From contig NZ_AP018207.1 of NCBI RefSeq assembly GCF_002367995.1, positions 6,460,646-6,524,645 on the forward strand: DNA of 64,000 bases, in the 5' to 3' direction. The stretch comes from Calothrix brevissima NIES-22. GTDB taxonomy: Bacteria; Cyanobacteriota; Cyanobacteriia; Cyanobacteriales; Nostocaceae. Shown piece by piece: positions 15,927 to 64,000 of this stretch (within the stretch, counting starts at the first letter, position 1; each line of letters opens with the position of its first letter). The notes beneath the pieces are model-generated. The model worked only from the letters and a program-made list of their open reading frames with translations, had not been told where the DNA came from and searched no databases. Both the position numbers and the translations under genes were made by a program.

Positions 15927-17720
15927 ATGTCGATCGCTTATAGCAATGTTAATCAACTTTGGGCTGATATCTTAACTCAGACCCTCAAGCGTTTAGGGTT
16001 GGCTTGTGCTGTGATTTGTCCGGGTTCCCGTTCTACACCGCTAGCAGTGGCGTTTGCGGCACAAAGGCCGGATATTGATGTTATCTCAATTCTCGATGAA
16101 CGTTCCGCCGCTTTTTTTGCTTTGGGACAAGCAAAAGCGAGTGGGAAACCTGCGGTACTGGTTTGTACTTCTGGGACAGCTGGCGCTAATTTTTATCCGG
16201 CGGTAATTGAAGCTAGAGAAAGTCGCGTACCTTTGTTAATCTTAACGGCAGATAGACCGCCAGAATTGCGCGATTGTCACTCCGGACAAACTATCGATCA
16301 ACTAAAGTTATACGGTGGATATCCCAACTGGCAGACAGAATTAACTTTACCCATAGCAGATATGGGGATGCTTGGCTATCTACGACAAACAATTATTCAT
16401 GCTTGGGAACGAACACAAACACCCTCACCGGGGCCAGTACATCTTAACATTCCTTTACGCGATCCCCTCGCGCCGGTTCCTGATGGTAGTGATTTGAGTC
16501 AGTTGCAATCTCAGTTAAATTTTGCAGAGTTTTTCGCGGGATTAACAAGTACTTTCCCTATACCCAATTCCCGATACCCGATTCCCGATGAATGGCTGCA
16601 ATGCGATCGCGGAATTATTATCGCTGGTGTTGCCCAACCACAGCAACCGCAAGATTATTGTAGAGCGATCGCCCGACTTTCTCAAACTCTCAAATGGCCT
16701 GTTCTGGCTGAAGGACTCTCACCCCTAAGAAATTACGCCCACCTCAACCCTAATTTAATTTCCACCTACGACTTGATTCTCCGCCATCCCCAATTAAGTA
16801 AAGAACTAGCACCCACAATGGTAATTCAAGTAGGAGAAATGCCTACTAGTAAAGAATTACGTAATTGGATCAATACTACACAACCGCGACGCTGGGTAAT
16901 AGATCCTAGCGAGCAAAATCTTGATCCTTTACATGGAAAGACGACTCATTTGAGAATTTCAATTGAGGAATTAGAGGAAAAGGGGACAAGGGAAGGGGGA
17001 CAAGGGGGACAAGGGGGACAAGGGGGACAGGGGGGACAAGGTAGGGAATCAATTCCGGAATACTTGCAATTGTGGTGTGATGTAGAAGCTCAAGTGAGGA
17101 CTGCTGTTGATAAAACTTTGGGGACAATGGCGGAGTTATTTGAAGGTAAAGCAGCTTGGTTACTTTCGCAAACTTTACCACCAGAAACGCCCTTATTTAT
17201 TGCTAATAGTATGCCAGTGCGGGATGTAGAATTTTTTTGGCAACCGAATAATTTAGGAGTGCGATCGCATTTTAACCGGGGTGCTAATGGTATTGATGGC
17301 ACATTATCCACAGCTTTAGGAATCGCCCATCACAATCAAAGTGCTGTAATGTTAACAGGAGATTTGGCTTTATTACACGATACTAATGGCTTTTTAATTC
17401 GCAATAAATTTATCGGACATCTCACAATTTTATTAATTAATAACAATGGTGGCGGTATTTTTGAAATGTTACCCATTGCCAAATTTAACCCACCTTTTGA
17501 GGAGTTTTTTGGCACTCCCCAAGATATTGATTTTGCTAAATTGTGCGCTACATATGGCGTAGAGCATGAATTAATTAATAATTGGGAACAGTTGCAACAA
17601 AAATTAAACCCACTACCAACCCAAGGAATTCGCGTTTTGGAACTGAGAACAAATCGCGCCCATGATGCCCAATGGCGAAGAGAAAATTTCCCACAATTTG
17701 CGAATAATATTAAATGTTGA
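15927..17720 (+). CDS. menD: 2-succinyl-5-enolpyruvyl-6-hydroxy-3-cyclohexene-1-carboxylate synthase
   Basis: MenD is the thiamine-diphosphate enzyme that joins isochorismate and 2-oxoglutarate, the first committed step towards phylloquinone (vitamin K1) in cyanobacteria. The N-terminal part has CPGSRSTPLA and the cofactor-activating Glu in ILDERSAAFFALG (about residue 58). The C-terminal cofactor motif runs from TGDLALLHDTNG to INNNGGGIFEMLP. Odd: residues about 351-373 hold a Gly-Gly-Gln tandem repeat encoded by a gggggacaa array, and residues 210-220 (PIPNSRYPIP) also come from a repeat. Both are insertions between domains of an otherwise intact enzyme. Confidence 0.96.
   Translation: MSIAYSNVNQLWADILTQTLKRLGLACAVICPGSRSTPLAVAFAAQRPDIDVISILDERSAAFFALGQAKASGKPAVLVCTSGTAGANFYPAVIEARESRVPLLILTADRPPELRDCHSGQTIDQLKLYGGYPNWQTELTLPIADMGMLGYLRQTIIHAWERTQTPSPGPVHLNIPLRDPLAPVPDGSDLSQLQSQLNFAEFFAGLTSTFPIPNSRYPIPDEWLQCDRGIIIAGVAQPQQPQDYCRAIARLSQTLKWPVLAEGLSPLRNYAHLNPNLISTYDLILRHPQLSKELAPTMVIQVGEMPTSKELRNWINTTQPRRWVIDPSEQNLDPLHGKTTHLRISIEELEEKGTREGGQGGQGGQGGQGGQGRESIPEYLQLWCDVEAQVRTAVDKTLGTMAELFEGKAAWLLSQTLPPETPLFIANSMPVRDVEFFWQPNNLGVRSHFNRGANGIDGTLSTALGIAHHNQSAVMLTGDLALLHDTNGFLIRNKFIGHLTILLINNNGGGIFEMLPIAKFNPPFEEFFGTPQDIDFAKLCATYGVEHELINNWEQLQQKLNPLPTQGIRVLELRTNRAHDAQWRRENFPQFANNIKC
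16990..17041 (+). repeat. gggggacaa tandem repeat inside menD
   Basis: Five to six direct copies of a nine-base unit gggggacaa, in frame within menD. The same unit appears in intergenic tracts (about 7718-7742) and, reversed, inside coaX and at the 3' end of trmD. Confidence 0.9.
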
Positions 17721-18279: not shown

Positions 18280-20814
18280 TCAACCAACAGTCAACAAAGC
18301 CGCAGGAATACGTTGACTAGGCAACAACAAATGGTCAATAATTTGATTGCGTAAATCTTTAGTCAAATAACTATCACTCTGAATACATTTAAGCAGCAGA
18401 ATATTAGCGTAAAAATAATCTTTTAAAATCTTAATTTCATCTTCAGTAAATATCACATCATTCCAACCAATATCTAAATATAAACGCATAGCCGATCGCA
18501 ATCTATTCGCCCAGTCTAACCAATCTGATTCTGGTGCTTGCTCCTCTGGGCGACTTTCTTTTAAAAAAACGAGAAACTCTGCTAAATCTTCATTGATATA
18601 ATTACCCGGTTCCTCTGCATATTCGCTACAATGATGAACTTGCGCCAGCGAGTAATTTGGTTGTATTTGTTGCGATTCTGACTGAATATTTTCTTGTGCT
18701 GGTTTAGTAATACAAATTACGCCACTATTTTTATCAATTAAACTAACTTCTGTTCGCAGTTGAGGTTTGCTTACAATTTGCTCGCTAGCCGGAAGTTCTT
18801 GCTTTAACAAAGGACTTAAATTTTGCGATTCAAAGCCTTTTTCTTGAGTTTTCGTATCTACTATATGGGCATGGTAATCAACTAAATCAAAAGCAAAATC
18901 AGATAGTAAAGAACGAGGATGGATAGATTTTCTTTCTTTATTGATTTCTCTTAAACTAACAGCTAGTTCCTGCGCCAAATGGTAATCAATCTTTGACTGT
19001 AAATTACTATATAATTCAAATACCTGATCGACAAACAAATAAAAAGCTCGCCAAGAACTAGATTTGACACCATGTAAAGTAGTGACATTATCTAGCCAAA
19101 TTAACATATCTTGTAAAACCTTGTTTTCCACCACTAGCAGATTAATTTGGCGAAACATCAATTTAAAGAAATCATCAGTATTCGCCAATCTTCCCGCAAT
19201 CATCAAAAATACTTCTTGCCACTGACGCTTTGTTAAATGTTGTTGCATCACTTCATTTAACGTCGCTGTATTTCTGCTTTCTACTACATGATGCGCTACA
19301 AAATATTCTTGAAATGTCAAATGCGAAAAAGAGTAAACATCTTGGGATTGTTTAATCAATAAGCCATGATTAGTTTCAATCGCTTTTAAAATCTCCTGAC
19401 TTTCCTCCGCCAATGTTTCTGGCGGAATTTCCAGAAAATTATCTAAATAATCTTCAATTAATGTTTCTAACTCTCGTTTCCACCAAAAATACTGTTGTGG
19501 TTCTTGGTTAAAAGCTTGATAAGCTATTTGACTTAGTAAGTTGACTTTGCGCTGATATGGTAAATTAAATTTATTAACTGCATTTCTGTCTATGCGTCTG
19601 CTAGCATCCCATTTGCGTAACAGAATATTCACCGCATCTTCAGTCAATAAGTAGCGATTTCTCGGAAACTCATAGTTATCTTGAAATACCAAACACAACA
19701 TTGTCAGCAGCAAGGGACTTGTGGTTAGCTCTTTAATAGAACTATTCTTTTCTAACTCACTTAAAAATTTAGCTGCTAACTCCGGTTCTTGGTACAATTT
19801 AAACCATTGTTTGACAAATTCCTTAACTTGTGGTTCCTTAAAATCTGCGATTTCTACTTCAGTAAAATGCTCAAATATATAATCTACCGCACCAGAACGA
19901 CAAGTTAAAACAAAGATATTTTTGGGATATTGCTCGACAAAACTATGAATCTGGCGATAAATGCGATCGCTTTGTGTTTCTGCAACTTCATCCAAGCCAT
20001 CTAGCAAAATCAAACAGCGCCCTAATTTGAGTAACTGCTGCACAATTTCTGCTGGTTGAGTCACAAATTGAATCAAATCTTCTTCAATAAAATCAAGCAA
20101 ATTGGGTTGATTTTCTACATCCGCAAATGCTTTTAAAGAAATCCAAATTGGTAGGGGTTGATTTTCTAAATCCCTAGCCGATGTTGCTAGATGTTTTAAA
20201 AATGTCGTCTTCCCTGCACCTGGGCTACCCCAAACCAACAGCTTGCGATATTTTTTGACTGCATCAAAAGCTAAAATATTGTCATGACGCACCCGATAAT
20301 TCAGCCGACTAAATTTAAGATTTTCGTTGGATAAATTCAGGCGCAAATCTTCAATTGTTTTTTGGTGTTTAGCTGGAACCGTTTCCAGAACTTTGACATT
20401 GGTGTAAATGCTATTAAGTTGTACTGGCTGAGTCATTGTCAGCACTTTCATATTGTTGCATTTTACCTGAATATATTCTTGGTATTCTGCAATCCAATCT
20501 GTCTTCACCTCAACATCTACTATTTCGCGTTTCTCTACAGCAGCTTGTTGTCTTAACGCTTCTTGATAACTTTCGTAGCCTAATAATACACCACACAAGA
20601 AATTCAAGTTCTTCTCTTGCATCTTGATGGGTTCGCTACTATTAAAAAAATTGCGAATAGTTTTATCCGAGATGACATCTTTGGTGCTGTTGGTTTTATC
20701 TCGATAAACATTATTCAGTTCAGTAATCAGTAGTTTAGGCGAACCGCCAAACTTTTCTATATAAGCTTGCTTTAATTTTTCCCAAATTTCTTGCGTGATG
20801 ATGATTGCTGTCAT
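18280..20814 (-). CDS. NACHT-domain STAND NTPase
   Basis: A large signal-transducing ATPase of the NACHT class (the animal NLR-like module; several bacterial NACHT proteins are anti-phage). Residues 1-90 form a small helical domain (EIWEKLKQAYIEKFGG...DKTIRNFF...NLNFLCGVLLGYESY) seen in front of many cyanobacterial NACHTs, as I recall. Walker A is GSPGAGKTT at 196-204 and Walker B with the NACHT-type acidic run is LILLDGLDE at 268-276. The sensor-type TCRSGAVDY, SFSHLTFQEYFVAHHVV and QRQWQEV-like blocks follow. Residues about 600-844 are helical without a recognised effector. It stands alone, and no obvious toxin or nuclease gene neighbours it. A defence role is inference. Confidence 0.92.
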   Translation of the reverse strand: MTAIIITQEIWEKLKQAYIEKFGGSPKLLITELNNVYRDKTNSTKDVISDKTIRNFFNSSEPIKMQEKNLNFLCGVLLGYESYQEALRQQAAVEKREIVDVEVKTDWIAEYQEYIQVKCNNMKVLTMTQPVQLNSIYTNVKVLETVPAKHQKTIEDLRLNLSNENLKFSRLNYRVRHDNILAFDAVKKYRKLLVWGSPGAGKTTFLKHLATSARDLENQPLPIWISLKAFADVENQPNLLDFIEEDLIQFVTQPAEIVQQLLKLGRCLILLDGLDEVAETQSDRIYRQIHSFVEQYPKNIFVLTCRSGAVDYIFEHFTEVEIADFKEPQVKEFVKQWFKLYQEPELAAKFLSELEKNSSIKELTTSPLLLTMLCLVFQDNYEFPRNRYLLTEDAVNILLRKWDASRRIDRNAVNKFNLPYQRKVNLLSQIAYQAFNQEPQQYFWWKRELETLIEDYLDNFLEIPPETLAEESQEILKAIETNHGLLIKQSQDVYSFSHLTFQEYFVAHHVVESRNTATLNEVMQQHLTKRQWQEVFLMIAGRLANTDDFFKLMFRQINLLVVENKVLQDMLIWLDNVTTLHGVKSSSWRAFYLFVDQVFELYSNLQSKIDYHLAQELAVSLREINKERKSIHPRSLLSDFAFDLVDYHAHIVDTKTQEKGFESQNLSPLLKQELPASEQIVSKPQLRTEVSLIDKNSGVICITKPAQENIQSESQQIQPNYSLAQVHHCSEYAEEPGNYINEDLAEFLVFLKESRPEEQAPESDWLDWANRLRSAMRLYLDIGWNDVIFTEDEIKILKDYFYANILLLKCIQSDSYLTKDLRNQIIDHLLLPSQRIPAALLTVG

Positions 20815-55552: not shown

Positions 55553-56278
55553 TTATTTGTCCCCCTTGTCTCCCTTGTCCCCCTTGTCTCCCTTCTCCCT
55601 TTGCCATTTTTCCAGTAAATCCGGACGGCGATCGCTAGTTCTTTGGATTTGTTGTTCGTAACGCCACTGGGCGATGGCGGCGTGATTTCCAGACAATAAG
55701 ACATCGGGTACTTTCCAGCCGCGAAAATTGGCTGGACGGGTGTATTGGGGATAATCTAACAAGCCTTCTTCAAAACTCTCTGCTGTCAATGATTCCACCT
55801 TCGCTACAGTGCCCGGTAATAGTCTTACCACACCATTAAGCAAAGCCATTGCGGGGATTTCGCCACCAGTGAGAATAAAGTCGCCTAGAGAGACTTCACG
55901 GGTAACTAAATGCAGTACTCGCTCATCTACTCCTTCATAATGGCCACAAATGACAACTAATTGGTTATAATTTGTTGCCAGCTCGCGCAAAAGTGGTTGA
56001 TTAATAGTTTGTCCTTGAGGACTCATCAAAATCACCTCTCTTTGCGGTAGAATCGGCAGCGACTCTACAGCAGCGAAAATGGGTTCCGGCTTCATCAGCA
56101 TCCCCACACCGCCGCCATAGGGTTCATCATCTACTTTCCGGTGCTTGTCATTGGTAAAGTCTCTAGGATTCACAAGATTGACTTGCGCAATCTGTTTGGC
56201 TAAGGCTTTAGCCAGCAATCCAGAACTCAAAACTGAGGTAAAACAGTCAGGAAAAAGCGTAACTATATCAAAGCGCAC
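55553..56278 (-). CDS. trmD: tRNA (guanine-N1)-methyltransferase
   Basis: TrmD methylates G37 of tRNAs, preventing frameshifting. The GTG start at 56276-56278 gives MRFDIVTLFPDCFTSVLSSGL. The trefoil-knot AdoMet site is visible as VVICGHYEGVDERV and LGDFILTGGEIPAMAL. Odd: the last 15 residues are KGD repeats (EKGDKGDKGDKGDK) encoded by a cttgtcccccttgtctcc array, so the C-terminus has been extended by an intergenic-type repeat. The enzyme core is complete. Confidence 0.96.
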   Translation of the reverse strand: MRFDIVTLFPDCFTSVLSSGLLAKALAKQIAQVNLVNPRDFTNDKHRKVDDEPYGGGVGMLMKPEPIFAAVESLPILPQREVILMSPQGQTINQPLLRELATNYNQLVVICGHYEGVDERVLHLVTREVSLGDFILTGGEIPAMALLNGVVRLLPGTVAKVESLTAESFEEGLLDYPQYTRPANFRGWKVPDVLLSGNHAAIAQWRYEQQIQRTSDRRPDLLEKWQREKGDKGDKGDKGDK

Positions 56279-57711: not shown

Positions 57712-57880
57712 CGGAATAGAGTATCTGAGGTTACACTGAGTTGATCGTTAATTTATTTCTAACCGTAGAAAAATCAAAGATACAGTATTTAAAAAGAAAA
57801 ACTGTTCATGATAAACAGTTTACGGTCAATCCCAGTAAGAAACTAGAATATTGGTTCCGAATCTCCATCTACCTATTCCC

Positions 57881-60583
57881 ATGAGAATCCTCAAGATCCA
57901 GACCTTACGCGGCCCAAACTACTGGAGCATTCGACGCCACAAGCTGATCGTCATGCGCCTCGATTTAGAAAACCTTGCCGATAAGCCCTCAAATGAAATC
58001 CCTGGTTTTTACGAAGGATTAGTAGAGGCCTTGCCAAGTCTGGAGGGCCATTATTGCTCACCGGGCTGTCGGGGTGGTTTTTTAATGCGCGTGCGCGAAG
58101 GCACAATGATGGGCCATATTGTTGAGCATGTAGCCCTCGAACTGCAAGAACTAGCCGGAATGCATGTCGGCTTTGGTCGCACCCGCGAAACAGCTACACC
58201 TGGAATTTACCAGGTAGTGCTTGAGTACCTCAATGAAGAGGCGGGACGCTACGCCGGACGAGCCGCAGTGCGGTTGTGCCAAAGTATTGTCGATCGCGGT
58301 CGTTATCCCAAAGCCGAGCTAGAGCAAGATATCCAAGACTTAAAAGACTTCTGCCGTGATGCATCTTTGGGACCGTCTACAGAAGCGATCGTCAAAGAAG
58401 CAGAAAAACGGGGTATACCCTGGATGTCTTTGGAAGCACGCTTTTTGATTCAGCTAGGCTATGGCGTGAACCAAAAGCGGATGCAAGCAACCATGACCGA
58501 TAACACCAGCATTTTGGGTGTAGAACTAGCTTGCGACAAAGAAGCCACCAAACGTATCCTGGCATCTGCTGGCGTACCAGTGCCTAAAGGTACAGTTATT
58601 AGTTTCTTGGATGATTTGGAAGAAGCAATTGAATATGTTGGTGGTTATCCCATAGTCATCAAGCCATTAGATGGCAATCACGGACGGGGAATTACCATTG
58701 ATATTAGAACCTGGGAAGAAGCCGAAGCCGCTTATGAAGCAGCTAGACAGGTATCTCGGTCAGTAATTGTGGAACGGTATTATGTAGGGCGAGATCATCG
58801 GGTATTGGTGGTAGATGGTAAAGTCGTAGCAGTCGCTGAACGCGTACCCGCCCATGTGGTAGGTAATGGCAGATCTACTGTTGCGGAACTAATTGAGGAA
58901 ACAAACCAAGACCCAAATCGCGGTGAAGGACATGATAATGTACTCACCAAAATTGAACTCGACCGGACAAGCTACCAGCTGCTAGAAAGGCAAGGCTTTA
59001 CCCTAAATAGCGTTCTTCCTAAAGGTACAGTTTGTTATTTACGCGCTACAGCTAACCTAAGTACAGGCGGCTGTGCTTTAGACCGTACCGATGAAATCCA
59101 CCCAGAAAATATTTGGCTAGCACAACGGGTAGTCAAAATTATTGGCTTGGATATTGCCGGCTTGGATATCGTCACCACAGATATTAGCCGCCCTTTAAGG
59201 GAAGTAGATGGCGTAATTGTTGAAGTTAACGCCGCTCCTGGCTTTAGAATGCATGTTGCGCCCAGTCAAGGCATTCCCCGCAATGTTGCAGGCGCAGTTA
59301 TGGATATGCTCTTCCCCAACGAGCAATCTAGCCGCATTCCTATTCTCAGCGTCACCGGTACTAATGGTAAAACCACTACTACCAGATTACTAGCACATAT
59401 TTATAAACAGACAGGTAAAGTAGTAGGTTATACAACTACAGACGGAACTTATATCGGTGATTATTTAGTAGAAGCTGGAGATAATACGGGGCCGCAAAGT
59501 GCCCATTTAATCTTGCAAGACCCGACTGTAGAGGTCGCAGTTTTAGAAAGCGCTCGTGGTGGAATTCTCCGTTCCGGGCTAGGTTTTGAAGCTGCTAATG
59601 TGGGTGTAATATTAAATGTTGCCGCCGACCATTTAGGTATAGGCGATATCGATACCATTGATCAATTAGCTAACCTCAAGAGCGTGGTAGCCGAAGCTGT
59701 ATTCCCGGATGGCTATGCTGTACTCAATGCCGACGATCATCGGGTGGCAGCGATGGCGGAGAAGACAAAAGCGAATATTGCTTACTTCACCATGAACCCC
59801 GACTCAGAATTGGTGCGCAAGCACATTCAAAAAGGCGGAGTCGCAGCAGTTTATGAAAATGGATATCTGTCAATTGTCAAAGGCGATTGGACGCACCGCA
59901 TCGAAAGGGCAGAAGCGATTCCTTTAACAATGGGGGGACGCGCGCCATTTATGATTGCTAACGCCTTAGCCGCAAGCTTGGCAGCTTTTGTCCAAAATGT
60001 CACCATTGAGCAGATTCGCGCCGGCTTAAAGACCTTCCGTGCTTCTGTGAGTCAAACTCCAGGACGGATGAATTTGTTTAATTTAGGCAACTACCATGCC
60101 TTAGTAGACTATGCTCATAATCCAGCTAGTTACGAAGCTGTAGGTGCTTTCGTTCGCAACTGGACTACAGGACAGCGAATTGGCGTAGTGGGCGGCCCTG
60201 GCGATCGCCGTGACGAAGATTTTGTCACCTTGGGCAAATTAGCAGCTAATATTTTTGATTACATCATCATCAAAGAAGACGATGATACCAGAGGTCGTCC
60301 TCGAGGTTCAGCCGCAGCGTTGATTACTCAAGGCATTACCCAAGTTAAACCCAATGCTCGGTTTGAGGCAATTTTAGACGAAACCCAAGCAATTAACAAA
60401 GGCTTGGATATGGCTCCGGAGAACAGCTTGGTCGTGATTTTACCAGAAAGTGTTAGCCGTGCCATTCGCCTAATTAGAACACGCGGCGTAGTTAAAGAAG
60501 AAACACATCAACAAAATTCAACTACAGCGATCGTAGATTCCCAAAATGGTGCCGTATCTCCGATCATCAATACGCTGCTTTAG
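57881..60583 (+). CDS. cphA: Cyanophycin synthetase
   Basis: CphA polymerises aspartate and arginine into the storage polymer cyanophycin. The N-terminal region (about 1-160) is followed by an ATP-grasp domain (about 220-480; GYPIVIKPLDGNHGRGITI) that adds Asp, and a Mur-ligase-like domain (about 490-875; P-loop SVTGTNGKTTTTRLLAHI) that adds Arg. The ATG at 57881 gives MRILKIQTLRGPNYWSIRRHKL, the family N-terminus; the frame extends ten codons upstream without support. Arginine comes from ArgG and ArgH, also in this window. Confidence 0.97.
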   Translation: MRILKIQTLRGPNYWSIRRHKLIVMRLDLENLADKPSNEIPGFYEGLVEALPSLEGHYCSPGCRGGFLMRVREGTMMGHIVEHVALELQELAGMHVGFGRTRETATPGIYQVVLEYLNEEAGRYAGRAAVRLCQSIVDRGRYPKAELEQDIQDLKDFCRDASLGPSTEAIVKEAEKRGIPWMSLEARFLIQLGYGVNQKRMQATMTDNTSILGVELACDKEATKRILASAGVPVPKGTVISFLDDLEEAIEYVGGYPIVIKPLDGNHGRGITIDIRTWEEAEAAYEAARQVSRSVIVERYYVGRDHRVLVVDGKVVAVAERVPAHVVGNGRSTVAELIEETNQDPNRGEGHDNVLTKIELDRTSYQLLERQGFTLNSVLPKGTVCYLRATANLSTGGCALDRTDEIHPENIWLAQRVVKIIGLDIAGLDIVTTDISRPLREVDGVIVEVNAAPGFRMHVAPSQGIPRNVAGAVMDMLFPNEQSSRIPILSVTGTNGKTTTTRLLAHIYKQTGKVVGYTTTDGTYIGDYLVEAGDNTGPQSAHLILQDPTVEVAVLESARGGILRSGLGFEAANVGVILNVAADHLGIGDIDTIDQLANLKSVVAEAVFPDGYAVLNADDHRVAAMAEKTKANIAYFTMNPDSELVRKHIQKGGVAAVYENGYLSIVKGDWTHRIERAEAIPLTMGGRAPFMIANALAASLAAFVQNVTIEQIRAGLKTFRASVSQTPGRMNLFNLGNYHALVDYAHNPASYEAVGAFVRNWTTGQRIGVVGGPGDRRDEDFVTLGKLAANIFDYIIIKEDDDTRGRPRGSAAALITQGITQVKPNARFEAILDETQAINKGLDMAPENSLVVILPESVSRAIRLIRTRGVVKEETHQQNSTTAIVDSQNGAVSPIINTLL

Positions 60584-60907: not shown

Positions 60908-61153
60908 TTAATAATTACAACCCCTGTTCTTTGCAAAATCGTTGTAGTTATAGTTTAGGCTGCGATCGCGGCTCAGATCGAGTTCTTCAGCAACTTCAGT
61001 CAGAGGGGAATGACGGAAGAATTCTGAGAGTTTGCTAGGTTGCTCTGAGTGGGTGTTGTGTATAGTCAGACTTTGGGCAAGAAGTTGGATAATATAAAGT
61101 TTTTTGTTGGGGGAAAGTTGAAGCAGTTGTTGTTCGAGTTCTGGGATAACCAT
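60908..61153 (-). CDS. Antitoxin-like small protein, probably orphan
   Basis: An 81-residue protein resembling the short antitoxins that precede PIN-domain toxins in cyanobacteria (helical N-terminus MVIPELEQQLLQLSPNKKLYIIQLLAQSL, then LSEFFRHSPLTEVAEELDLSRDRS). No toxin gene follows: the next gene downstream on this strand is tatA. The last 15 residues (NYNYNDFAKNRGCNY) look unlike the usual ending, suggesting a frameshift or loss of the toxin half. The assignment is from recalled sequence style and is moderate. Confidence 0.55.
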   Translation of the reverse strand: MVIPELEQQLLQLSPNKKLYIIQLLAQSLTIHNTHSEQPSKLSEFFRHSPLTEVAEELDLSRDRSLNYNYNDFAKNRGCNY

Positions 61154-61585
61154 AATGGGGTTTAAGTGGAGGATAATTTTATTTTACTTTCGCGCTCGCT
61201 CCTGGGAAAACTTTGCTATTTACTGAAAGCTGCTTTTTTTATACTTTATTTTATAAATCTTAAAGAAGAATACAAAAATCAAAATTAAATTAATTATTGA
61301 ATTGATGGAGAATGAGTTTATTTAGTTATTTAGTTGAGACAAACTCCATGAGTATTTCTTTTTAGGTAAATCTAAAAAGAACCAGAGAAAGCTTATATGC
61401 TAGCTAAAATAGAAGCTGGTATTAAATATGACATATTTTAAATTAAACCATAGCAATTTTTTGCATACATATGGTATCCATTTAGTAATCTGGAAACCAA
61501 AGCTTATAATATTGCCAATTCTGGAAAATAACTATGGGAATAAAAGGCATTTTTGAACGCAACCTCACACAATTATTAAAACTTT
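61154..61585. other. AT-rich region upstream of the MACPF-like gene
   Basis: About 430 bases of AT-rich spacer between the divergent antitoxin-like gene and the MACPF-collar gene; presumed promoter region. No clear -35/-10 pair, RNA or repeat was recognised. Confidence 0.45.
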
Positions 61586-61598
61586 AGGAGTAGATGAC

Positions 61599-63098
61599 AT
61601 GGCTGAAATTCCAATGCAGGCTCAACTGTATATGGGTAGAGGGGTAAATAGTATTACTGGAAAACCATTCGGAACGGCGATTGAATTTGATACTCCTCCA
61701 GATGATACTGAAGGACAAGAAGTATCGCTTCATTTACTTGCAATTTCAAGCAGTCGAGAACTAACAGAAACACTGAACATTAGTGCATCCGCTTCTTTTA
61801 AGAAAGGGTTTGGAGGGGTATCGGCTGAGTTTAGTTTGGTTCAGTCTCGGCAGTTCAATAACTACTACACATATGCTATGGTTCGATGTTTTGTCAAAAA
61901 TCCACCTAAGTTGCTTCGCAATCCCCGCTTGAAATCCGAAGCAGAAGATTTGTTAAAGCAAAAGGGATGGGATGAATTTGCTAAAGCATATGGTTGGGAA
62001 TACGTTGCAGGACATATCACTGGCGGCAGCTATTATGGACTCATTGAGATACAGACAATAAATGAGACAGAGCAACAGGATATAAAACGTAAATTAAGTG
62101 GCTTCTATGGTGCATTCGACGCTTCCGTAGAAGTACAAAATTCTCTCAAGGAGATTGTAAAAAATACAACTACCAATGTTTTTGTAACCCACAGTGGAGG
62201 ATATGGACAGCCTGTGGCAGTATCTTTAGAAGCAATGATTGAAGATGCACGAAACTTTCCAGCAGTTGTTAGTAAAAACCCGATAAAAATTGTAGTTCTT
62301 ACGTCTGATTATCAAAGTACGGTACCTCTCCCTCAGCTTCCAAACCAAAACTTTATAGTAAGAATTCAACAAAAAAATACTCTAGAAGACTTAGGTCGTG
62401 AATACCTCAAATTACGAGACTACAAAGCTAATCTGGAGTTTGTTCTCGAACACTTGATTGAGTTTGATGATTTCCGTGAGCTAGATACACAACAATTACA
62501 GAGTAAAAGACAAGAGTATCAAGATTCACTGGATGGAACTGCAAATGAGATTGATGAGATTGTAAAACGTGCTAGTAACTGTATGGATGACTTCGGTCAG
62601 TGTCAAACTTATGCGCCTAGTATTCAACGTTTACCATTACCGAAGATTGGAGGTAATTTGATGAACCTTAAGCAAATAGAAGAGCATCTCAGTAAGTTGC
62701 GTCAAGAAGTAGAGAACCTGAGAGCAAGACCTGAACTTCCTCAAGGAAGCATAATACCTTGGTATACAAAAGATGGTAGCATTCCTGCGGGCTGGGCAGT
62801 TTGCGACGGAGCTAATGGAACACCAGATCTTAGAGGAAAGTTCCTTATGGGCACTACAAATACGTCAAAAGTTGGTGAGACTGGAGACGGTAACACAGTT
62901 ATCGGTGAGGTAGATGTTACAGCTTATGCTGCTGGTTGGGATCAACATATAACACCAAGCCCCAATGGCGGTCCACAGGCAAATCAGGGTTGGGGTAATC
63001 AACAATGGCATCGATTAGTTAGCAACGTGAAAATACCCCAAAGACAGTTTAAGTCCGTCCCTGCATATTGCAAGGTTATTTATATAATGAAGCTTTAG
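61599..63098 (+). CDS. MACPF-like protein fused to a phage-tail collar domain
   Basis: A 499-residue protein that appears to join three parts. Residues about 1-240 resemble a membrane-attack-complex/perforin (MACPF) domain: MGRGVNSITGKPFG near the start, and the signature region YGWEYVAGHITGGSYYGLIEIQT (131-153), matching the Y-G-x-[HE]-[YF]...GG pattern. Residues about 255-375 are helical and coiled-coil-like (LEDLGREYLKLRDYKANLEF; LKQIEEHLSKLRQEVENL). Residues 380-499 are a tail-collar domain: PQGSIIPWYTKDGSIPAGWAVCDG, TPDLRGKFLMGT, and the C-terminal PAYCKVIYIMKL. There is no signal peptide. The start has AGGAG 8-12 bases upstream. Pore formation is inferred; the collar call is strong. Confidence 0.75.
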   Translation: MAEIPMQAQLYMGRGVNSITGKPFGTAIEFDTPPDDTEGQEVSLHLLAISSSRELTETLNISASASFKKGFGGVSAEFSLVQSRQFNNYYTYAMVRCFVKNPPKLLRNPRLKSEAEDLLKQKGWDEFAKAYGWEYVAGHITGGSYYGLIEIQTINETEQQDIKRKLSGFYGAFDASVEVQNSLKEIVKNTTTNVFVTHSGGYGQPVAVSLEAMIEDARNFPAVVSKNPIKIVVLTSDYQSTVPLPQLPNQNFIVRIQQKNTLEDLGREYLKLRDYKANLEFVLEHLIEFDDFRELDTQQLQSKRQEYQDSLDGTANEIDEIVKRASNCMDDFGQCQTYAPSIQRLPLPKIGGNLMNLKQIEEHLSKLRQEVENLRARPELPQGSIIPWYTKDGSIPAGWAVCDGANGTPDLRGKFLMGTTNTSKVGETGDGNTVIGEVDVTAYAAGWDQHITPSPNGGPQANQGWGNQQWHRLVSNVKIPQRQFKSVPAYCKVIYIMKL

Positions 63099-63111
63099 AT
63101 TTTTGCAATTT

Positions 63112-64000
63112 CTACTGAGTCTGAATCTCTATCCCTAACCAAGCGCTTAATTCCTGGGCTAACCATTCCATTTCCGCTTCAGATTTGAGAGGAAAATGAC
63201 TATTAGCAAGCTGATATTTTTGTACTCCAGCCCAAAGTTCTAATTGTGCAGGTATATTAATTCTATTGCCATCAGAATCTTTAGTAAAATGTGGTGGAAT
63301 ATACACTAGTTTAGTAATATTATTCCGGGGAGATGGTCGGGGACGATGAAATTTAAATCCAAATAACTCATAGGTTGAAGATACTTGTTGACTATCCAGG
63401 CGTAATTTCATACTTCCCCAGATATTAAATAAAAAACTATACATCATAAAGCCGCCAGCGCCCCAAAAAGGCAGGGAGAACAAGGCAAAGGGGATATTAA
63501 CCGGAAAAGGTGCAGCAAGCGCCCCAATCGTCCAAAATAGGATGAATGAATTCCAAGCGATCGCAAAGGTACCTAAGAATAACATCGATGCTTGCCAGCC
63601 ATGAGGCGGAATGAGAATTTCTAGCACATCCTGATTTTTCGTCAGTTGAATTTTGCTCCCTGGTGGTTGACTAATCGTTAAATCAGTTAAATCAGTCGCC
63701 TGGTAAACTAGGGGTTTATCTAAGGCTTGGATGGCTTTGAGGGCAGAACTGGCACGCTTTTCTAGGCTAGGTTCGATCAGCCAGCCTAACCAATGACTCA
63801 AATCAGGACTGATATTAGCTGCTTGCTCAAACTGAATGCGAAAATCCTTTTGGGGTAAATCGGCGGGATGAGTCCCCGTTAACAAGTAAATTAGCGTTGC
63901 ACCCAAGCTGTAGAGATCCGATGCAGGAACGGTGCGCCCACCAAATTGTTCTAGTGGCATATAACCGTAGGTTCCTACCACCGTCCGCGTTGAACCTTCA
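63112..64000 (-). CDS. Ser/Thr protein kinase with membrane domain, N-terminus missing (partial)
   Basis: The C-terminal part of a Hanks-type kinase that continues past the right window edge; the frame is open to the last base (EGSTRTVVGTYGYMPLEQFGGR). Visible are the activation-segment GTYGYMPLEQ (APE equivalent), SDLYSLGATLIYLLTG and the Arg in LIEPSLEKRASSA of the last kinase helix. After the kinase come two to three hydrophobic segments (about 135-200 from the first Val: GWQASMLFLGTFAIAWNSFILFW and IPFALFSLPFWGAGGFMMYSF), then a cytoplasmic beta-rich tail. It converges with the MACPF-collar gene across 13 bases. Confidence 0.9.
   Translation of the reverse strand, partial: EGSTRTVVGTYGYMPLEQFGGRTVPASDLYSLGATLIYLLTGTHPADLPQKDFRIQFEQAANISPDLSHWLGWLIEPSLEKRASSALKAIQALDKPLVYQATDLTDLTISQPPGSKIQLTKNQDVLEILIPPHGWQASMLFLGTFAIAWNSFILFWTIGALAAPFPVNIPFALFSLPFWGAGGFMMYSFLFNIWGSMKLRLDSQQVSSTYELFGFKFHRPRPSPRNNITKLVYIPPHFTKDSDGNRINIPAQLELWAGVQKYQLANSHFPLKSEAEMEWLAQELSAWLGIEIQTQ

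Follow-up and report, generated by a model that had tools for sequence, protein, structure and literature searches.

A predicted MACPF/CDC pore-forming domain joined to a phage tail-fibre collar in Calothrix brevissima NIES-22

Introduction

Bacterial MACPF proteins such as the Bacteroides BSAPs, Mpf2Ba1 and GNIP1Aa pair a pore domain with a C-terminal recognition domain, and we know of no collar domain in any of them. In the CDCs the corresponding position is occupied by domain 4, and in stonustoxin (SNTX) the C-terminus comprises thioredoxin-like and PRYSPRY domains; SNTX-like proteins carry a FAT-like helical bundle after the MACPF domain. Here we describe a gene of the cyanobacterium Calothrix brevissima NIES-22 (contig NZ_AP018207.1, positions 6,460,646–6,524,645; this 64,000-nucleotide stretch is referred to as the window) whose product joins a predicted MACPF/CDC domain to a C-terminal collar domain of the phage tail-fibre kind. 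A preliminary description, made from the sequence of the window, had proposed this combination and knew of no described system with the same order. Our literature searches agree: neither MACPF with tail collar nor MACPF with tail fiber in cyanobacteria returned a report, subscription papers and preprints being mostly outside their coverage. The MACPF/CDC family itself is known; for its apparent pairing with a phage fibre tip, as judged from sequence, no earlier report was found.

Results

The gene (Table 1) lies in a genome of 9.26 Mb. It opens with ATG and is read as one uninterrupted frame, at the coordinates, and with the 13-base gap to its convergent neighbor, that the preliminary description gave. 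The same description had worried that the two halves might be separate genes across a misread boundary; both lie in a single stop-free frame, and this explanation was ruled out.

The AlphaFold2 (AF2) model and fold comparison support a predicted MACPF/CDC fold for the N-terminal part, with a bent central sheet and two helical clusters between strands, the outcome that had been proposed as a structural check. The clusters span residues 50–89 and 153–190 (40 and 38 residues) and, in the model and its comparisons, occupy the positions of membrane-inserting hairpins. The MACPF-like signature expected in this half is present as YGWEYVAGHITGG (residues 131–143), which matches the core [YF]G..[FYVI]......GG, and a glycine pair, G200-G201, follows the strand 191–199. 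Across a 13-row alignment F127, G132 and G142 are invariant, with G138 kept in 12 rows, G200 in 10 and G201 in 6. A leave-one-out profile built from 12 relatives, with the window row excluded, scored the window protein at 204 bits over residues 1–340; 0 of 200 shuffles and not the reversed protein were listed. A length condition for the two hairpin clusters is stated in a paper on astrotactin-2 (PMC4892435). The near-equal clusters and the kept glycines fit a working pore. Among viral proteins, fold matches at E ≤ 0.001 numbered 6 of 273, all named as MACPF proteins of giant viruses.

Standard models were less responsive. Pfam, NCBIfam and PHROGs gave no convincing row for the N-terminal part, and Pfam MACPF (PF01823) gave none for the whole protein. 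PF01823 rows were found in 4 of 20 relatives scanned (L029 at 21.5 bits, equal to the cut-off; L010, L003 and L031 below it), and 16 had none. The profile search for PF01823 and PF07484 (Collar) in the same protein, suggested earlier as a check, gave no row for MACPF and placed Collar below its cut-off.

The best fold match is SNTX (PDB entry 4wvm), aligned over 272 residues across the MACPF domain and the following helical hairpin at 8% identity; the hairpin (residues 249–330) was aligned only as part of model 1–349. In contrast to SNTX, the window protein ends in a collar, with no thioredoxin-like or PRYSPRY Pfam row at E ≤ 10. Literature since 2022 yielded nothing joining SNTX with perforin, phage and immunity. 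The second-best match, and the nearest solved relative, is PDB entry 9uj0, titled a pore, of 36 chains and named "Aegerolysin-L" by its depositors. It belongs to the same family over profile positions 3–253 (E 2e-14), although the window N-terminal part alone gives only 20.6 bits and 9uj0 is absent from the PDB matches of the collar profile. Among the literature matches listed, no publication on 9uj0 was recognized by title. The matched stretch of 9uj0 contains a protease-site-like LEVLFQGP, and the construct is therefore probably engineered. Mpf2Ba1, GNIP1Aa and a Bacteroides MACPF protein are all in the list of fold matches.

The C-terminal part begins with a heptad run (L357, I360, L364, L367, V371, L374) that is helical in both models, as the coiled coil described between the two halves would require. 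The collar domain that follows, likewise anticipated, scores beyond its chance controls. It matches a PHROG at E 2.7e-12, and a profile of 18 viral rows, with the window excluded, gives 88.9 bits on residues 376–499, against 0 of 201 shuffled or reversed sequences listed at E ≤ 100. The motifs AGWAVCDG, TPDLRGKF and YIMKL are all present, as are the collar core GxIxxW..IPxGWxxCDGxNGTPDLRxxF and the C-terminal YIMK strand. Core and strand are shared with T4 gp12 (1ocy), the gp37 tip (2xgf), the phage Pa223 fibre (9nxk), the Photorhabdus contractile injection fibre (8on5) and Bizionia C24 (6ov6); none of these five fibre or collar proteins is described as having a MACPF domain. A coiled-coil-like stretch precedes the collar in several viral rows too. 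The trimeric state previously suggested finds only indirect support, through the heptad coiled coil and by analogy with the matched tail-fibre tips, which we take to be trimers. Comparison of a collar-bearing protein from another cyanobacterium (L004) with phages was uninformative.

Table 1. Features of the fusion gene, its insertion and the C-terminal modules of relatives (L numbers denote loci of family members)
Feature	Window position or locus	Strand	Basis or remark
MACPF/CDC – helical hairpin – coiled coil – collar fusion gene (predicted)	61599..63098	+	499 aa
MACPF/CDC domain (predicted), about residues 1–247	61599..62339	+	AF2, fold comparison, profile, motif
Helical hairpin (predicted), residues 249–330	62343..62588	+	AF2 model; aligned together with the MACPF domain to stonustoxin (model 1–349)
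Internal Shine-Dalgarno GGAGG	62649..62653	+	7 nt before in-frame ATG of M355 (62661–62663); duplex -10.6 kcal/mol
Possible internal open reading frame from M355, 145 aa	62661..63098	+	Free coiled coil and collar, or a remnant of the fibre gene after its fusion
Heptad coiled coil, about residues 356–375	62664..62723	+	Spacing 3-4-3-4-3 from sequence; helix 357–375 in both models
Phage tail-fibre collar domain, residues 376–499	62724..63095	+	PHROG, leave-one-out profile, PDB tail fibres, viral relatives
Insertion of about 1.93 kb: fusion gene and about 418 bp A+T-rich upstream DNA	61181..63108	.	Bounds against G395
Beta/gamma-crystallin module	L010, L029, L031		Pfam
GUN4 module	L003 (1.2e-40), L015 (8.9e-33)		Pfam; both cyanobacterial
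GON module	L014		Pfam
PASTA module; ricin lectin module	L149; L150		Both below Pfam cut-offs

Relatives share the pore part and differ in their C-terminal modules (Table 1); the remaining relatives scanned have no recognized module. A tblastn search of plasmids with the whole protein gave 16 records, of which 10 match the collar and 6 the N-terminal part: Streptomyces (E 4e-29, residues 4–383), Paracoccus (7e-24), Indioceanicola (6e-15) and, more weakly, Deinococcus (1e-5), Methylorubrum (3e-3) and Nostoc TCL26-01 (7e-3). Genome searches add cyanobacterial relatives. One genome-contig scan was without relatives and another gave six loci, new in Kribbella, Protofrankia, Oleisolibacter and Limnothrix and already known in Rivularia and Nostoc carneum. 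Members were detected in 9 of 217 genomes when the host's family was searched, a figure that counts the host itself and a broken copy; in its phylum they were detected in 5 of 386, again with the host among them. An actinobacterial class gave 3 of 394, two of them already known, and an alphaproteobacterial class 4 of 289, one being the centre. The pore-former family is sparse in bacteria, its pore domain kept and its C-terminal module traded.

A second MACPF-collar gene was not found. The full-length protein matched 7 of 386 genomes, two (G289 and G297) through the collar only and the others through the pore part, and pore-part profiles gave no further fusion in sets of 217, 386, 3, 394 and 289 genomes, which are overlapping samples. 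Among 4588 stop-to-stop frames from 150 sequences, the five matching both pore and collar models are all copies of the window gene. Several other loci contain features of their own. L024 (G464:C55) is a decayed member with 101 profile positions matched and one internal stop. L134 (G245:C1:4333000-4346000) is a module-free member whose neighbors are small open reading frames (ORFs) and one resembling a DNA methyltransferase; nifU/nifS-like genes flank it on one side (by eye), and it possibly sits inside an element interrupting the nif cluster. Type I restriction genes (HsdM/HsdS-like ORFs, by eye) are found in the vicinity of L133 and L033. In Kribbella (L029:8643-9662) a peptidoglycan-binding-like ORF (by eye) begins 28 bases past the MACPF-crystallin gene, possibly in one operon, and in Rivularia (L030:5318-6859, the same locus as L019/L136) the member is immediately preceded, on the same strand, by an ORF that resembles a membrane protein (by eye).

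The insertion appears to be specific to the strain. In all seven other genomes of the genus searched both flanks are present and the gene between them is missing; five of these sites were retrieved. In G395 window position 61180 is joined directly to 63109 (subject 783/781). The gap between 61180/61179 and 63124 is 12 and 13 bp in G401 and G396. The left flank of G398 and G400 stops earlier (60925, 60859), the right resuming after 48 and 27 bp. Matches in G397–G400 leave no room for the fusion gene. The inserted DNA upstream of the gene has a G+C fraction of 0.28 compared with 0.41 for the window. These alignments may be read as the entry of about 1.93 kb with one gene into this strain or as its loss from the others, insertion being the simpler. 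G395 has another family member elsewhere in its genome, with a different C-terminus. No clear terminal repeats were seen at the insertion. Its edges resemble other sites (61196–61226, G000:C5:38975-39005, 94% of 31 bp; 63098–63133, G000:C1:1829036-1829071, 89% of 36 bp), with a further match in G400:C156; the edge stretches are possibly repeats involved in insertion.

At the seam between the two halves, M355 sits where the coiled coil begins and is preceded by a strong Shine-Dalgarno sequence (Table 1). The 46 window ORFs contain 253 internal in-frame ATGs. Three of these, M355 included, have a site as strong, and one of the three, which falls at codon 7 of a different ORF, may itself be a genuine start; 0 of 29 ATG starts have an equally strong one. 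Given the amino acids the site is not rare: 814 of 5000 redraws of the eight preceding codons, using the gene's own codons, were equal or stronger. The GGAGG-ATG may have been the original start of a fibre gene and have survived the fusion, or it may still work as an internal start. An internal start as a habit of the family found no support: in 10 relatives with a C-terminal extension, the seam as placed had no strong in-frame site. Kribbella L029 has a strong site (GTG, -10.0) at codon 413, the start of its best crystallin stretch.

Upstream of the fusion gene are a cyanophycin-synthetase-like ORF (57851–60583, by eye) and a small minus-strand ORF (60908–61153). The convergent ORF, which ends at 63112, is kinase-like (Pkinase E 0.0023, below the Pfam cut-off). 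It is an unlikely partner and is probably unrelated, as the preliminary description had allowed, because it occupies the same flank in genomes without the fusion gene there. Promoter and terminator scans were near chance level. By eye, no tail, lysis or defence genes were seen adjoining the fusion gene among the window ORFs. A prophage origin was rejected: no tail or head genes were seen in the window ORFs (by eye), the N-terminal 379 residues have no PHROG match at E ≤ 0.01, the phage collection matched the collar side only among 20 of 47 records listed, and scans of viral contigs gave collar relatives in one and none in five. Elsewhere in the window, a large ORF (18280–20814, minus strand), about 41 kb from the fusion gene, contains a P-loop stretch resembling NACHT-type signalling ATPases (by eye). 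GDK repeats end a trmD-like ORF (55553–56278, minus strand) and GGQ repeats lie within a menD-like ORF (15927–17720, plus strand), both otherwise ordinary and named by eye.

Discussion

The reading we favor, with moderate confidence, is that of a horizontally acquired, modular pore-forming protein aimed by its C-terminal collar. Sequence shows its two domains, their fusion, the swapped C-termini of relatives and a strain-specific site, and prediction adds the MACPF/CDC fold, as in pore-forming proteins of the immune system. Such a front half, followed by the tip of a phage fibre, suggests a pore-forming weapon directed by a part taken from phages. By analogy with the family, one member of which is a solved pore, the MACPF/CDC domain would assemble into a ring on the target membrane and the two helical clusters would become β-hairpins lining the pore. 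The coiled coil and collar may trimerise and form a binding head by which the target surface is selected, at the position that β/γ-crystallin, GUN4, GON, PASTA-like and ricin-lectin-like modules occupy in other members. Crude hydropathy finds no hydrophobic stretch at the N-terminus, in agreement with the earlier remark that a signal peptide is lacking. Since none is visible, release would probably be by lysis or a non-classical route, and the released protein would attack competing, parasitic or grazing cells.

Several observations weigh against this reading. The AF2 model was built from 7 sequences only, TM-scores in the fold comparison are low (0.25–0.42 for the top three, lower further down), and the superposition on 9uj0 has a root-mean-square deviation of 11.8. 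The amphipathic β pattern of the two hairpin regions is just slightly higher than the protein mean (1.39 and 1.34, mean 1.12), and there are higher peaks elsewhere. The strict pattern of classical perforin-like MACPF proteins, Y-x6-[FY]-G-T-H-[FY], is absent from the window protein. As for the CDC motif, F/Y-F/Y-Xn-YGR with a glycine pair, which PMC7527733 reports as conserved, Y89-Y90, Y131-G132 and G200-G201 are present; unlike in CDC and CDC-like proteins (PFO, 8g33, EaCDCL), the arginine is replaced by W133. On the collar side, PF07484 reaches 19.3 of 24 bits with the C-terminal 139 residues and 15.6 with the whole protein, over 22 of 57 profile positions, and the fusion gene was not listed in a genome search with this model. 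The SHxH-type motif of many phage rows is missing, and the binding surface may therefore differ. A trimerising tail must also be squared with a many-membered ring.

The least improbable alternative, which we nevertheless consider unlikely, is an intracellular anti-phage executioner: a cytosolic protein whose collar co-assembles with, or senses, new tail fibres or their chaperone, freeing the MACPF part to pierce the cell's own membrane in abortive infection. The N-terminus lacking any signal-peptide-like character, the phage kind of collar, the strain-specific insertion and the two relatives near type I restriction genes (by eye) are in its favor. So is the rarity of secreted-looking members by crude hydropathy, 3 of 18 (Methylorubrum, Deinococcus and Paracoccus, the last counted from a start that we set ahead of the annotated one), to which L150–L152, outside the 18, add hydrophobic starts by eye. 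The GUN4 regions of two cyanobacterial relatives, L003 and L015, also count for it: they match the C-terminal part of the PADLOC defence model PD-T4-6 (1.3e-40 and 7.7e-39), perhaps because the model has a GUN4-like domain at its own end. The window protein, however, matched 0 PADLOC families at E ≤ 1, no neighboring defence genes were seen by eye, and the PASTA and ricin-lectin modules resemble surface binders. Some members, at least, thus appear to be exported and others do not, and for this protein either release by lysis or an intracellular role may apply.

Less probable again is an adhesin or matrix protein that has lost pore-making, the collar binding a surface and the MACPF part serving as scaffold. 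MACPF proteins that make no pores exist, for example astrotactin-2 (PMC4892435), and the missing strict pattern and CDC arginine would be accounted for; the near-equal hairpin clusters, the conserved glycine motif and a nearest solved relative that is a pore argue otherwise. Nearly as doubtful is a collar trimer bearing one MACPF arm, or a few, with extra free collar chains supplied from M355; such an assembly might be an aimed pore, or a decoy or sensor that co-trimerises with the fibres of an invading phage and triggers membrane piercing from inside.

Chance recombination of a pore-former gene with a fibre gene, giving a fusion without function and perhaps a collar translated alone from M355, seems to us very unlikely. 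This is a single example among the sequences searched and GGAGG-ATG lies exactly at the seam, but the 499-codon frame is intact throughout, each module is matched over almost its whole length (model positions 2–342 and 4–132), and modules stand at the same place in other family members. The poorest candidate is a part or cargo of a phage-tail-like particle mounted through its collar on a tail encoded at another place in the genome. Two sheath matches speak for it, one at 2631642 and the nearer about 155 kb from the fusion gene beside a contractile-tail-like cluster (by eye; G000:C1, about 6366520–6385000), but this cluster is about 137–156 kb away and has its own collar protein of another subtype, with an insertion that the window collar lacks, collar domains belong at fibre tips and not at the mounting end, and no sheath, tube or baseplate genes were seen by eye alongside the fusion gene among window ORFs, no search having been aimed at tube or baseplate families.

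The fusion seam, the empty site and the swapped modules make the order of events directly testable. If the protein acts inside the cell, it would represent a new mode of phage sensing. If the aimed pore that we favor is functional, phage fibre tips would be ready-made aiming devices for single-chain pores, beyond their use in injection machines.
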